NCBI RefSeq assembly: GCF_033958435.1
Contig: NC_134138.1
Coordinates: 6,274,001 to 6,338,000 of the forward strand
Length of the DNA: 64,000 nucleotides
From: Carettochelys insculpta
Taxonomy: Eukaryota > Chordata > Testudines > Carettochelyidae
Direction of reading: 5' to 3'
In this document: positions 5,890 through 61,035 of the stretch, in pieces
How the letters are laid out: every line of letters begins with the position of its first letter
How positions within the stretch are numbered: the first letter of the stretch is position 1
Translations under genes and position numbers: made by a program
The notes under the pieces: model-generated
What the model was told of the DNA's origin: nothing
What the model saw: the letters and a program-made list of their open reading frames with translations, nothing else
Databases searched by the model: none

Positions 5890-5975
5890 CTCTGAGGCAG
5901 CGGGTCTTACCCACGAAAGCTCATGACCTAATAATTTGTTAGTTTTTAAGGTGCTACAGGACCACTTGTTGCTTG
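5890..5975 (+). mobile_element. Penelope-like element terminal-module fragment
   Basis: This is a remnant of the PLE terminal module (pLTR): a degenerate hammerhead-like core (CTGAGGC...CCCAC GAAA at 5892-5918), then the conserved 'ttgttagtttttaaggtgct' type tail. The canonical core A is replaced by C, so it is probably inactive. Confidence 0.65.
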
Positions 5976-6098
5976 TGAAGCTACAGCTAACACTGCTCCC
6001 CCCAGAGACTACCACCACCACCGAAAGCGACCTGTACATCTTTGTTTTCATTCACTGGATAAATTCCTACTTGCACTAACCAGCCAAGTGCTCTATTT

Positions 6099-39490: not shown

Positions 39491-39492
39491 TA

Positions 39493-40140
39493 GTAACAGA
39501 GAGAAAGCCGTGCTAGTTTATATACTATCAAAACAAAAAAGCAGTCAAGTAGCACTTTAAAGACTAACAAAATAATTTATTAGGTGAGCTTTCGTCAGAC
39601 AGACCCACTTCTTCAGACCATAGCCACACCAGAACAGACTCAATATCTAAGGCACAGAGAACCAAAAATAGTAATCAAGGTTGACAAATCAGAAAAAAAA
39701 TTATCAAGGTGAGTAAATCAGAGAGTGCAGGGGCGGGTTGGGGGGTGGGGAGAGACAGTCAAGAATTAGATTAAGCCCAGTATGCAAACTAGCCCCTATA
39801 GTGACCCAGAACATTTGCATCCTGGTTCAAACCACGTGTTAATGTGTCGAATTTGAATATGAGAGAGTTCAGCAGCCTCTCTTTCCAAAGTAGTGTGAAA
39901 ATTCCTCTTCAGTAAGACGCAAACTCTTAAGTCATTAACAGAATGGCCCACTCCATTAAAATGTTGGCTGACCGGTGTGTGGATCAGGAGTGTTTTTATG
40001 TCTGTTTAAGAGAGTTTGAAGTCTGTCCAATATACAAAACATCATATGTGCCAGCAATGCCCAGATGCTTTGTATGTTGGACAGACTTCAAACTCTCTTA
40101 GGCAAAGAATTAATGGGCACAAAACAGATGGGCTTGCAGG
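39493..40140 (-). mobile_element. Penelope-like element with head-to-head GIY-YIG pieces
   Basis: The minus strand carries, from 40036 downward, the end of a PLE GIY-YIG endonuclease domain (TTG-type reading Y-I-G-Q-T-S-N-S-L), a region reading FKFDTLTRGLN, a 3' UTR, and the terminal module with a hammerhead-like core at 39590-39616. At 40037-40135 the plus strand carries another piece of the same domain (CQQCPDALYVGQTSNSLRQR then INGH). The two pieces overlap as a 30-bp inverted repeat (40007-40036 and 40071-40100, 29 of 30 matching). PLE proteins are RT plus GIY-YIG. No RT core is left here. Confidence 0.85.
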
Positions 40141-45379: not shown

Positions 45380-46310
45380 TTTTCTAAACTTGTTTTTATG
45401 TCCTCTATCTTGAACTTGTTCACACCCTTCTTAAAGTGTGGTACACAGAACTGGACACATAACCTAGCTAAGGCCTCACCAGGGCTGAAAACAGCGACAT
45501 AATTACCTCCTGTATCTTAGATAAAATATTCCATTAATACACTCCTGAATAATAATAGCCCTTTAATACCTTGTTGACTCATTCAATTTGTGATCCATTA
45601 TAATTCCAGGATCCTTTTCAAAAGTAGTACCACCCAGCCAGATATCTTCCACCTTGAATCTGCACATCTGATTTTTCCTTCCTAACTAAAGCTTTTTGTC
45701 TTTTATTGAATTTCATCTTTTTGTTTTCAGACCAACTATCTAATTTACAAGTATCAGACAGGCAACCGTGTTAGTTAGTAGCTTCGAGAACAACAAGAAG
45801 TCTTGTGGCACTTTATAAACTAACAGATATTTTGGAGCATAACCTTTCGTGGGCATCTGACGAAGCGGGTCTTTGCCCATGAAAGCTTATGCTCCAAAGT
45901 ATCTGTTAGTCTATAAGGTGCCACAGGACTTCTTGTTATTTAATTTACGATGGTGTTTCTGAATTCTAATCCTGTCCTCCAAAGCGCTTGAGAAACTCTC
46001 AGCTTAGTGTCATTTGTAAATTTTAGAAGTACATTCTCCACTCCATTACCCAAATCATTAAAATATTGACTGGCACTGGACTCCGGACAGAGTCCTGCAG
46101 GACATCACTAGGTATACCCTACCGGTTTTACAGCAAGCAGATGATAACTACCAAGTATGATTTTACAAACTGCTGAACATGCTCTTTACAGGAATATCTA
46201 TTCTAGACTATGTTTCCCCTAATTTGCTTTTGAGAATGCCATGCAGGACTGGGCCAAAAGCCTTACTCAGATACATTAGCTCTATGGCTTTCCCCTATCC
46301 GCAAGGTCTG
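45380..46310 (-). mobile_element. Old CR1 LINE, interrupted by a short palindromic PLE
   Basis: Antisense CR1 RT-region sequence ('gaactggacacataacctag', 'ccttgttgactcattcaatt', 'gaatttcatctttttg') continues after 45949 ('cctgtcctccaaagcgc', 'gactccggacagagtcctgc'). It is the most diverged CR1 in the window and no open frame remains. Confidence 0.8.
45749..45940. mobile_element. Short palindromic PLE-derived element with hammerhead-like core
   Basis: A 192-bp unit flanked by taatttac at 45741-45748 and 45941-45948. It holds a ~35-bp head (gtatcagacaggcaaccgtg...) and then two inverted arms: 'acaagaagtcttgtggcact ... ttttggagcataacctttcg' and its reverse, with centre near 45857. The plus-strand core CTGACGA at 45857-45863, a G/C-rich stem II and GAAA at 45881-45884, followed by GCTTATGCTC, fits a type-I hammerhead ribozyme with a three-pair stem III. 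It has no protein coding. It is interpreted as a non-autonomous PLE. Confidence 0.8.
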
Positions 46311-46751: not shown

Positions 46752-47545
46752 CTTGTTGCAAGGAAAAGTCCCAGGATTAGTATTACTGTGGTTAGTACTA
46801 AGAATCCTCATTAGGTTGGGAGGTTGCCTATAGGACAGAACAGGCCTGTCACTTAGGGCCTTCTGGAGTGTGGCATCATAATTTATGACAGGCTGTAGGT
46901 CTTTAATGGTGCATTGTAGTGGTTTGAGTTTGGGGCTGTAGGTCATAAGAAGTGGTGCTCTGTTATTGATTTCTTTGGGCCCATCCTGGAGTAGTTGGTT
47001 TCCGGGTATTTGTCTGGTCCTGCCGATTTGGTTTTTTACTTCTCCTGGTGGGTAATTAAAGTTTATGAATGTTTGGTAGAGATCCTGTAGTTTTTGGCCT
47101 CTGTCAGTAGGATCACAGCAGATGCGATTGTATCTCAGGGCTTGACTGTAAACAATGCATTGTGTGATGCATGCAGGATGGACGCTAGAAGCATGTAGGT
47201 AAGGGTAGTGGTCAGTAGGTTTCTGGTAGAGGGTGGTATTGATCTGGCCATCAGTGATTTTTACTGTAGTGTCCAGGAAATGTACCTCTTGTGTGGACCT
47301 CACACTTACTTCCCACCTCCCCCAGCTCTTTTATCTGATTTGCCAACAATAATAATAATTTTTGGACTTCTGTACTTTACATATTGAATCTGTTCTGGTA
47401 AGGCTATAGATCTGAAGAAGTGGGTCTGTCCCACGAAAGTTCATCACCTAATAAATTATTTCATTAGTCTTTAAAGTGCTACATGACAGCTTTTTTGTTT
47501 TGACAGGATACAGACCAACATGGCTCTCTCTCTGTTACTATTCAA
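46752..47545 (-). mobile_element. Penelope-like element: RT thumb region and inverted 3' module
   Basis: The minus strand at 46752-47303 has an open frame of about 180 codons with VHFLDTTVKITDGQINTTLY, QKPTDHYPYLHASS, YSQALRYNRIC and FINFNYPPGEV, the region after the RT palm in PLE proteins, ending at a Cys-containing NPGTFPCNKP motif. From 47304 the orientation flips: a plus-strand 3' UTR ('attgaatctgttctgg') and terminal module with hammerhead-like core CTGAAGA ... CCCAC GAAA at 47412-47438. There is no start and no complete RT. Confidence 0.88.
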
Positions 47546-50130: not shown

Positions 50131-50262
50131 GAGTGGTAACAACGAGGGAGCCGTGCTAGTCTATACACTATCAAAACAAAAAGCAGTCAAGTAGCACTTT
50201 AAAGACTAGCAAAATGGTTTATTAGGTGAGCTTTCGTGGGACAGACCCACTTCTTCAGATCT
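50131..50262 (-). mobile_element. Solo PLE terminal module
   Basis: An isolated pLTR-like module in antisense: 'gggagccgtgctagtctata', 'cagtcaagtagcactttaaa', and the complement of a hammerhead-like core at 50232-50258 (CTGAAGA...CCCAC GAAA on the minus strand). No coding sequence is attached. Confidence 0.85.
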
Positions 50263-50767: not shown

Positions 50768-51910
50768 GTGACAGAGAGATAACCGTGTTTGCCTGTATTC
50801 TACCAAAACAAAGCAGGAGTCCTGTAGCACTTTAAAGACTAACAAACATATTAGGTGATGAGCTTCCATGGGACAGACACACTTCTTCAGATCCTACTGA
50901 CAGAGACCGAAAACTACAAGTGCTCTACCAAACATTCATAAACCTGAGTCACCCACCGGGAGAAGTAAAAAAAGAAATCAACAGGGCCAGCCAGACTAAT
51001 ACCCAGAAACCAACTACTCCAAGATCAGCCCAAAAAAGCCAAGAACAGAACACCACTGGTCATCACCTACAGCCCCCAACTCAAACCACTGCAACGCATC
51101 ATTACAGACCTACAACCTATCCTAAATCAGGATGCCACACTCCAGAAGGCCCTAAATGACAGGCCTGTTCTCTCCTCCCAGCCTTATGAGTATTCCCACT
51201 AGCAACCACAGACTATACCGCAAAAATACTAATCCTGGAACTTTCCCTTGCAACAAGCCCCATTGCCAAATTTGTCCACATATCTATTCTGGAGATAACA
51301 TCACTGCACCTAACCATGTTAATTACAAAATAACGGGCACGTTCTCCTGTTCCTTAACTAACAACAGATATGTCATCATGTGTCAATGGCCACACACTTT
51401 GTATATAGGACAGACTGCAAACACTCTTCGATAAAGAATACATGGACATAGAGCAGGCATCAAAAAAATCCAAATACGCAAACCTGTCCGCCAGCACTTT
51501 AATGGAGTGGGCCATTCTGTTAAAGACCTGGAAGTTTGTTTTCTATTGAAAAGGGACTTTAACAACGGTCTACAGAAGGAATGCTCAGCACTCATATTCG
51601 TATTCAAATTCGACACTTTAACACGTGGTTTGAACAGGGACAGAAATTACCTGACCCATTATAAGCACTCTTTTACATAGTGTGATATTTTATCTAACTC
51701 TTAACTTCCCCACTCCATACCCCCCACCGCCCCTCTGCTCTTCTGACTTCCCAACCTTGATAATATATACAGCCTAGAGGCCCAAAAATTGTTGAGTCTG
51801 TTCTGATAAGGCTACGATCTGAAGAAGTGGGTCTATCCCATGAAAGCTCATCACCTAATACATTATTTTGTTAGTTTGTAAAGCGCTACATGACTGCTTA
51901 TTCATTTTGT
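50768..51910 (+). mobile_element. Penelope-like element with inverted terminal modules and GIY-YIG domain
   Basis: The order is: an antisense terminal module (50768-50890, degenerate core), plus-strand coding remains (about 50895-51665), a 3' UTR and a plus-strand terminal module with core CTGAAGA ... GAAA at 51819-51845. The coding remains include LYQTFINLSHPPGEVKKEIN, NPGTFPCNKPHCQICPHIYS with paired Cys, and a GIY-YIG endonuclease segment YVIMCQWPHTLYIGQTANTL. These lie in different frames with stops (for example TAA after TLR at 51434), so the copy is dead. The RT palm is absent. Confidence 0.9.
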
Positions 51911-52169
51911 TTTCATGTGTATGAGAATGACATCACTGCCCCAGTGCTGAAACAGCCACATTTTCCAGTCAGATATTCAGACTGGAAGTCTTAGCTGCCC
52001 ACAGACAAGAGAACAGAATTTTCCCACAGAGTCTTTTTGCTATACAGTAAGATTAAAATCACAAGCTGGAGATTGGAATCTCCTATTGTGGAGTTTGTTC
52101 CAAACACTATGTTTTCCAGTTCCAGTCACAGAGATGCCACACAACAAAGCTTCCATCCCTCGGTAGCAA

Positions 52170-52265
52170 CATGAAGTCCTGTGGCACCTTATAGACTAAC
52201 AGATAAGGTGCCACAGGACTTCTTGTTGTTCTCGAAGATACAGACTAACATGGCTCCCCTCTGAT
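52170..52265. mobile_element. Collapsed palindromic PLE-derived element
   Basis: 'agtcctgtggcaccttat' (52174-52191) is repeated in inverted form as 'ataaggtgccacaggact' (52203-52220), with the head sequence 'tacagactaacatggctccc' on the right. The hammerhead-core portion between the arms is missing, unlike 45749-45940 and 59211-59421. Confidence 0.75.
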
Positions 52266-52884
52266 ACTCATCTCTCAGTACGTTATTCCACAGTTGCACA
52301 GGCTGAGAACAACAACAAACCTGTCAACCCTTCTCTTCAGTTTCTCAGACACAAATATGGGTTTTTAAATCCTCCTGTATGTTGCCTCTCAGGACGCAAG
52401 TTGCATTAAGCCCAGGCCTGTTCATTACTTCTGAAGAAACCAGGAAACAGATTTGCCTTTAGGTTTTTAAGCATCAGAAATTAAAAACATAAATTATGAG
52501 AATGTCTTGGAGCCAGACGAATTCATCGTCGTCAATTGCAAAGCCAACGTAGAAGGAGCTGAATGACGCAAACAGCTGGCAGGCAGCGTGGCAAGTGGTT
52601 CTGGACTCTGCTACATGCAAGACAAATGGAACAGTCAATGAGATGTTCTTGTGGGCAGGTGCCCCAGCAGCCGTCAGCAGGACTAACAAACGTTTGCCTC
52701 AATTACAACATGTAAGAGATTCATTTCCTGGACACTACAGTACTAATCAAGGATGGCCTGATCAGTACCACACTGTACCCAAAACCTATTGATTGCTATA
52801 CTTATCTACACCCTTCTAGCTTCCATCCTGCACACGTGACTAGATCCATTGTTTACAGTGAAGCTCTTAGATACAATCACATTT

Positions 52885-53620
52885 ACTCTGATCCAACTGA
52901 CAGAGATCAAAAACTACAAGAACTTTACCAAATATTCATAAACCTGAATTACCCACCAAGAGAAGTAAAAAAACAAAATTGACAGGGCCAGACGAATACC
53001 CAGAGACCAGCTACTCCAAGATCGGCCCAAAAAAGCCAAGAACAGAACACCACTGGTCATCACCTACAGCCCCCAACTCAGACCACTGCAACGAATTATT
53101 AAAGACCTACAACCTATCCTTAATCAGGATGCCACACTCCAGAAGGCCCTGGGTGACAGGCCTGTTCTCTCCTACAGACAACCTCCCAACCTTATGAGGA
53201 TCCTCACTAACAGCCACAGTCTATACCCCAGGAATACCAGTCCTGGAACCTTTCCCTGCAACAAAGCCCACTGCCAGCTTTGTGCACATATCTTCTCTGG
53301 AAATACCATCACTGGACCTAACCAGAACAAAAAGCAGTCCAGTAGCACTTTAAAGACTAGCAAAATAGTTCATTAGGTGAGCTTTCGTGGGACAGACCCA
53401 CTTCTTCAGACCATATCTTTTTCTGATTTGTCCTCCTTGCTTACTGTTTTTGGTTCTCTGTCTCTTAAATATTGAGTCTGTTCTGGTCTGGCTATGGTCT
53501 GAAGAAGTGGGTCTGTCCCACGAAAGCCCACCCAATAAACCATTTTGCTAGTCTGTAAAGTGCTACTTGACTGCTTTTTGTTTTGATAATGTATAGACTA
53601 GTACGGCTTCCTCTCTGTTT
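52885..53620 (+). mobile_element. Penelope-like element, 3' part with two inverted terminal modules
   Basis: Plus-strand coding remains 52890-53325 match the thumb region and Cys motif of the copy at 50895 ('aaactacaagaactttacc', 'ggaacctttccctgcaacaa'). They are followed by an antisense terminal module with core at 53383-53409 and then a plus-strand 3' UTR and module with core at 53499-53525. The GIY-YIG domain is cut off at the first module. Frames are broken. Confidence 0.88.
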
Positions 53621-59198: not shown

Positions 59199-59210
59199 AA
59201 GAATGTGAAG

Positions 59211-59421
59211 TATCAGAGAGGGAGCCGGGTTAGTCTATATCTTCAAAAACAACAAGAAGTCCTGTGGCACCTTATAGACTAACAGATATTTTGGAGCATA
59301 AGCTTTCGTGGGCAAAGACCTGCTTCGGCACATCTGCCGAAGCAGGTCTTTGCCCACGAAAGCTTATGCTCCAAAATATCTGTTAGTCTATAAGGTGCCA
59401 CAGGACTTCTTGTTGTTTTTG
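59211..59421. mobile_element. Short palindromic PLE-derived element, intact, 12-bp target duplication
   Basis: A 211-bp unit flanked by aagaatgtgaag at 59199-59210 and 59422-59433. It starts with the head TATCAGAGAGGGAGCCGGG, followed by an almost perfect inverted repeat of about 85-90 bp per arm with centre near 59332 ('cttcggcacatctgccgaag'). The arms contain 'aagtcctgtggcaccttata', 'ttggagcataagctttcgtg' and their complements. The plus arm carries CTGCCGA ... GCCCAC GAAA GCTTATGCTC (59334 onward), a hammerhead-like core in which the normally invariant second A is C. The minus arm has the mirror core. Confidence 0.9.
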
Positions 59422-59610
59422 AAGAATGTGAAGCTCATTCAGTGGCATAGGGTTACAACAAAAAAAGGCACTGCCAGCTGTGTAGTGAAGTCTGATCTCT
59501 TATTTTTAAATCCCGTGGCCAAAAAGGGACGTTAAATTGTGACCAGGCCAGAGAGTCTGTGCAAATGAATTCCTCTTGTGTGATCAATGCAAATGAAGCT
59601 AAACTACAGG

Positions 59611-60610: not shown

Positions 60611-61035
60611 CAACAGACCCAAGTTGCTGGCACTAGGGATTGAACCTGTGATCATAGGGGCTAAAGCCCTATGCTCTACTGCATGAGCTAAAGGTCACCT
60701 TATTTCTAGCTCATGTGATAAAGAACAGGGCTTTAGTCCCTATGGTAGCAGGTTCAATTCCTGGTTCCAGCCACACAGGTGTGTCGGCGTTACAACTGGG
60801 GGCTTGCCTGGGAAGAACTGCTGGAAGGTCTCAGAAGCTCAGGATGCACTTCCTCAGCCCAGGGAAGCATGTAGTACCCAGAGGCACTGAGACCTCTTAC
60901 TAGGGTGAGTGAAGTCTCTGCTCTACAGCCTTGGCTGCATGCCAGCTGGCCTTTAGTTCATATAGTAGAGCACAGGGCTTTAGGCCCTATGACCACAGAT
61001 TCAATCCCTGGTGCCTGAATCTGTCAGCATTACAT
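60611..61035 (+). repeat. Second composite tRNA-like cassette
   Basis: It has the same layout as 48630-49060: an antisense module (60611-60702), a sense module (60708-60796, 'tagctcatgtgataaag' and GGTTCAATTCC), a spacer with 'cagcccagggaagcatgtag' and 'tactagggtgagtgaagtct', and a third, sense module (60946-61035, 'tagttcatatagtagagcac' and GATTCAATCCC). Two independent loci with one architecture indicate a single mobile family. Confidence 0.8.

Follow-up and report, generated by a model that had tools for sequence, protein, structure and literature searches.

A palindromic insert in the Carettochelys insculpta genome as a probable two-ended insertion of a Penelope-like element

The window, a 64,000-nucleotide stretch of the Carettochelys insculpta genome, carries a 211-bp insert at 59211-59421. 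It is directly abutted on both sides by a 12-bp target duplication, AAGAATGTGAAG, whose copies at 59199-59210 and 59422-59433 were located by sequence reading and a repeat search. The insert consists of two inverted arms that are complementary at 91 of 91 positions and lie 4 nt apart. The left arm (59240-59330, minus strand) is antisense on the plus strand and ends within a hammerhead core. The right arm (59335-59425, plus strand) repeats the same module, and its final 4 bases fall within the right target duplication. Only one side has a head, of about 30 bp (59211-59240, minus strand), and the 4 nt between the arms (59331-59334), a centre that varies in other copies, form the putative junction of two cDNAs. 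The predicted fold of the element RNA is a single long hairpin of -169.9 kcal/mol. The target duplication, the inverted arms with a head on one side, the lack of a protein in the unit and the RNA hairpin had all been proposed in an initial annotation made from the sequence, and all four hold.

The source of the insert was found by searching the turtle's own genome for GIY-YIG endonucleases, which gave at least 32 matches among the best 150 of 3,795 candidates scored; 30 loci were fetched. At one of these, L072, a GIY-YIG endonuclease is followed by a pseudo-LTR (pLTR) and tail that are 92-94% identical to the window. Two others, L054 and L060, each encode reverse transcriptase (RVT_1) and GIY-YIG in one frame and have pLTRs about 80% identical to that of the window; the L054 pLTR was read to end in a tail. 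Because these copies of a Penelope-like element (PLE) carry matching ends, the arms are assigned to the pLTR and the head to the tail, an optional extension of 30-40 bp in PLEs (PMC11167929). Thus by its sequence the insert is a PLE, and the presence in the same genome of an RT plus GIY-YIG ORF with pLTR and tail places it, as an insertion product, among the endonuclease-containing PLEs. The ORF-bearing copies bear out the PLE origin and PLE-type mobilisation suggested earlier; the head, taken then to be unique, is the known tail. The RT plus GIY-YIG frames of L054 and L060 are uninterrupted over about 600 aa in the fetched part, and reach 811 and 747 aa in the genome. Given these intact frames, the family may have been active recently.

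The window was also searched with the PLE end of L072, which revealed additional family members, among them at least two with two arms. The first, at 45750-45941, has its tail at the left end, a shorter tail arm and an apparent 8-bp target duplication, TAATTTAC, identified by eye. The second, at 52167-52266, is short and has its tail at the right end. Seven further pLTR matches, 71-78% identical, lie at 5891-6002, 39491-39617, 47410-47540, 50136-50260, 50772-50905, 51817-51909 and 53326-53617; they would represent older or other subfamilies. A separate tRNA-family match on the minus strand at 60627-60697 (32.3 bits against a cut-off of 29) is perhaps a tRNA-derived SINE.

The family is abundant. 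Counted on both strands of the genome, a 16-position arm segment has 12,406 exact occurrences, the tail with the left-arm motif 8,262, the tail with the right-arm motif (near-full spacing) 1,804, and the head-to-head two-armed arrangement at least 3,500, with 0 occurrences of the reversed-pattern control in each case. A genome query made with the arm alone gave 0 candidates and thus no match. The 1,804 exact occurrences of the tail and right-arm layout against none for its control mean that the layout in the window is not due to chance. Copies with this tail have one arm about as often as two: among tail-bearing loci (best 40 of 2,076 candidates scored), 15 of the 30 fetched were two-armed, the window's own copy being counted and L089 and L099, whose second match was distant or weak, being excluded.

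Three other samples of two-armed copies were analyzed. A window-like set comprises the window copy and 39 others (best 40 of 2,194 candidates). The window copy carries the majority base of this set at 75 scored arm positions, and its apparent youth is suggestive only, the 40 copies having been chosen for their likeness to it. A younger set, L110-L149, is the first 40 of 49 loci of the younger tail type, chosen by eye among the first 100 places with tail and right arm. Finally, L150-L169 are 20 copies fetched regardless of tail from the first 26 head-to-head places listed, after omission of five one-tail copies already fetched through a tail-requiring pattern and one near-duplicate neighbour. 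An exact flank repeat of at least 8 bp was found in 34/40 younger and 31/40 window-like copies, compared with 1.3% and 1.1% of mismatched flank pairs, so that the target duplication characteristic of a PLE is seen well beyond the 12 bp in the window. The copies have both the shared termini and the target duplications on which the initial annotation had made its mobile-element reading depend.

On the plus strand, 59334-59369 shows a hammerhead-like layout, recognized by eye, that consists of CTGCCGA (59334-59340), stem II, GAAA (59358-59361) and GCTTATGC. Relative to the CTGANGA core one A is replaced by C, and stem II has two mismatches besides. On the minus strand the core is, by eye, further broken: the left arm ends inside it and its first base is G, which makes the two ribozyme layouts of the window copy unequal. 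The core-stem-GAAA layout and the change of the second A to C are as the annotation described, and its suggestion that this copy may be catalytically dead is borne out by the broken core.

Rfam models gave no hammerhead at the gathering score in the window, nothing of hammerhead type at E<=10 in the window element, and no hammerhead match in a PLE copy with an intact core. The matches obtained in the element were to hairpin models, mostly miRNA, all below their own cut-offs, and were set aside. Although the covariance models suggested earlier for this check were negative throughout, a plain scan for core and stem II detected the motif in relatives: L072, L054 and L060 were positive, as were, on one strand or both, 31/40 younger and 4/40 window-like copies, against 0/80 for the reversed control. 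The window copy was negative, lacking the combination of CTGANGA core, stem II and GAAA. L072 reads GCAT-CTGATGA-stem II-GAAA-GCTT-ATGC, with stems I and II in its lowest-energy fold. Judged from these motifs, the hammerhead is real in the family and broken in the window copy, where it is probably inactive. The AGCT at stem III is palindromic and hints at a dimeric form, and dimeric action is described for amphibian hammerheads in the accessible part of PMC7229834. From the predicted folds, transcripts with two arms should favour the long hairpin over the ribozyme.

The distribution of the tail follows a pattern. Among the 20 copies fetched regardless of tail, exactly one end carries it in 17, both ends in 0 and neither in 3, and the three include L154 (score 28) and L166 (24), which fall below the threshold of 30 and above their own shuffles. 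If the ends were independent, one end would be expected in about 9.8 copies, both in about 3.6 and neither in about 6.6 (P = 0.0009, n=20). The samples whose patterns required a left tail contain a whole tail at the right end in 0/40 (younger) and 0/15 copies. The right ends of the 40 younger copies lie 22-49 nt short of a whole tail, with L116, L138 and L139 aligning 22-25 nt short. These counts, from a small sample of 20, suggest a one-tail rule.

The arms also differ in length. In 15 of the 40 younger copies the tail arm is the longer one, in 19 it is the shorter, and in 6 the two are equal. Of the 20 copies fetched regardless of tail, 19 could be scored, with the tail arm the shorter in 15 and the longer in 4 (P = 0.019); L150, being tailless, gave no orientation, the sub-threshold tails of L154 and L166 served to orient them, and the procedure is biased towards a long tail arm. 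Adding the younger set gives 34 against 19 (P = 0.053). The query behind the 15 two-armed tail-bearing copies demanded a long left arm; among these the tail arm exceeds its partner in 9, falls short of it in 5 and equals it in 1. The tendency of the tail arm to be the shorter partner is suggestive only. A negative relation between arm lengths (r = -0.33) was set aside, since total length was constrained by the search pattern. At the junctions of the 40 younger copies the arms overlap in 12, meet flush in 5 and are separated by extra bases in 23. That either arm can be the longer argues for separately primed cDNAs joined mid-insert rather than for self-priming by a hairpin, though unequal arms could also result if young palindromes lose sequence at their centre.

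In the copies examined, an antisense copy of the 5' portion of the PLE RNA lies next to each repeat of the target duplication and points inward. One arm begins at an outer site and includes the tail; the other lacks the tail and begins about 34 nt further inside. Each arm runs toward the 5' end of the RNA and halts at or short of approximately GCATCTG, and the position of the junction is variable. GCATCTG is reached by 15/40 left arms and 19/40 right arms of the younger copies, counts made with arm references cut at GCATCTG, which cannot reveal arms extending further; by eye, three fillers seem to continue upstream of it. A TATA-like box, identified by eye, lies about 30 bp upstream of GCATCTG in L072 and L054, which would put GCATCTG near the transcription start. 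With a start there, the template would be RNA uncut by the ribozyme, consistent with the finding that ribozyme cleavage is unnecessary in vitro (PMC11167929).

These features are best explained by asymmetric two-ended target-primed reverse transcription of a PLE, to which we assign a probability of about 0.7. The PLE protein would cut both target strands with a stagger. Each 3' end would then prime one cDNA, the outer start (the tail side, 59211-59240) being used at one end and the inner start (the tailless right arm) at the other, and host end joining would link the two cDNAs mid-insert. A lizard PLE protein, PAc, cuts and extends both target strands, and two adjacent internal start sites bound the tail (PMC11167929). 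By analogy, the natural copies look like that in vitro reaction carried to completion, with one start outside the tail and the other inside. Each insertion most likely generated its palindrome anew from the 5' portion of the PLE RNA, and we regard the palindrome as an insertion form of the PLE, not as a separate lineage of small elements.

The least certain part of this explanation is that a single RNA serves both ends. Priming from two different RNA molecules has a chance somewhat below even. It would fit the 4 of 20 comparable old copies whose arms are discordant for a transversion at the core site, and the youngest subfamily, where within-copy similarity shows no excess (arms differ by 1.57% within a copy and 1.45% between copies). 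The subfamilies of the two arms nevertheless agree in 39/40 copies when assigned by script with S1a and S1b pooled, and in 33/40 unpooled; the S1a/S1b marker is mostly uninformative, sitting by eye where the target duplication begins, and the lone exception, L114, looks concordant by eye. In L150-L169 the script assigned differing arm labels to three short-armed copies. In old copies, moreover, rare variants recur in both arms of a single copy in 16 cases, where 300 shufflings gave a mean of 2.4 and a maximum of 9, and the strict asymmetry of the tail suggests coupling of the two ends. A tentative extension of the two-ended reaction would make it obligately asymmetric: a pair of proteins would load the DNA ends at the outer and inner starts of one RNA, the inner-start enzyme leading to the RNA 5' end and the outer one trailing and often stopping short, so that the tail would mark the trailing strand.

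Self-priming is an unlikely alternative. A cDNA or antisense RNA would fold back on a short palindrome close to the 5' end of the pLTR and serve as its own template; the resulting hairpin would be inserted, and central deletions would later make the arms unequal. Self-copying had first been suggested by the private variants shared between arms, and the unequal arms argued against it. A palindrome, CAGATGCATCTG, does occur among the centres, one spacing recurs in 17/40 old copies, and the 16 shared rare variants fit as well; the rotifer PLE discussion also favours this route in the accessible part of PMC3846280. A tail arm that served as template should never be the shorter one, yet it is so in 19/40 and 15/19 copies. 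Nor do the extra bases at 23/40 junctions, or arms of the youngest subfamily that are no closer within a copy than between copies, agree with self-copying.

Finally, a mobile non-autonomous unit copied whole by PLE reverse transcriptase is disfavoured and very improbable: the 40 similar copies do have common outer ends with target duplications of their own, and 17/40 share one centre spacing, yet arms of different copies are 90.7% identical over 75 nt whether left is compared with left, right with right or left with right, arms within a copy are closer (92.4%, an excess reached in 0/20,000 permutations), centres range from 29 to 50 nt, and one-armed copies with the same tail are as common as noted above. 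Left arms being no closer to left arms than to right arms, the palindrome is unlikely to be copied whole, and the copies do not form a self-propagating fold-back element with an inherited palindrome, although the shared spacing counts against this exclusion. The spacing in question is the 42-nt form, and a single shared 42-nt centre is also expected from a preferred meeting point of the cDNAs. The initial annotation's inference that the palindrome moved as a unit is thus unsupported, in view of the absence of any left- or right-arm lineage in the 40 copies and of their variable centres, and its tiny non-autonomous retroelement with a lineage of its own gives way to the insertion form of a PLE.

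Two-ended priming has a parallel in LINE-1 twin priming, in which both broken ends prime on the element RNA to give an inverted segment with a target duplication. There, the segments derive from different stretches of the RNA, whereas here both ends copy one stretch. The Poseidon PLE of Anolis (PAc; PMC11167929) likewise has a pLTR with hammerhead, a tail between two start sites, and cutting and extension of both strands; that work is in vitro only, and its text contains neither joined two-ended products nor a one-tail rule. In the accessible part of PMC3846280, the endonuclease-containing PLEs of Adineta vaga carry inverted pLTRs arranged head to head, one of which has a 31-bp tail, and a short target duplication, so inverted PLE copies of which one bears a tail are already known. 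As described there, however, the pLTRs flank an ORF in few copies, whereas the two-armed copies here lack an ORF and number in the thousands; and those elements are read as self-priming, whereas the junctions here point to two-ended priming. Retrozymes, as presented in the accessible part of PMC7229834, are similarly small, non-coding, hammerhead-bearing and spread by reverse transcription. They consist of direct tandem repeats and have circular RNA; here the modules are inverted, no module is directly repeated and the RNA is seemingly uncut. The literature searched, with subscription papers mostly outside it and including the accessible parts of PMC8969392 and PMC12910113, yielded no paper in which a one-tail rule is stated or natural junctions are taken as evidence for two-ended priming.

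The mechanism of PLE insertion is largely obscure, and inverted copies and the optional tail are treated as puzzles (PMC11167929 and the accessible part of PMC3846280). Thousands of two-armed insertions in one genome provide a ready data set on this process. Their ends and junctions indicate priming of reverse transcription at both DNA ends of the break, and suggest fixed, separate roles for the two start sites, a rule that is testable in the published in vitro PLE system. If transcribed, the two-armed copies could also supply double-stranded RNA.
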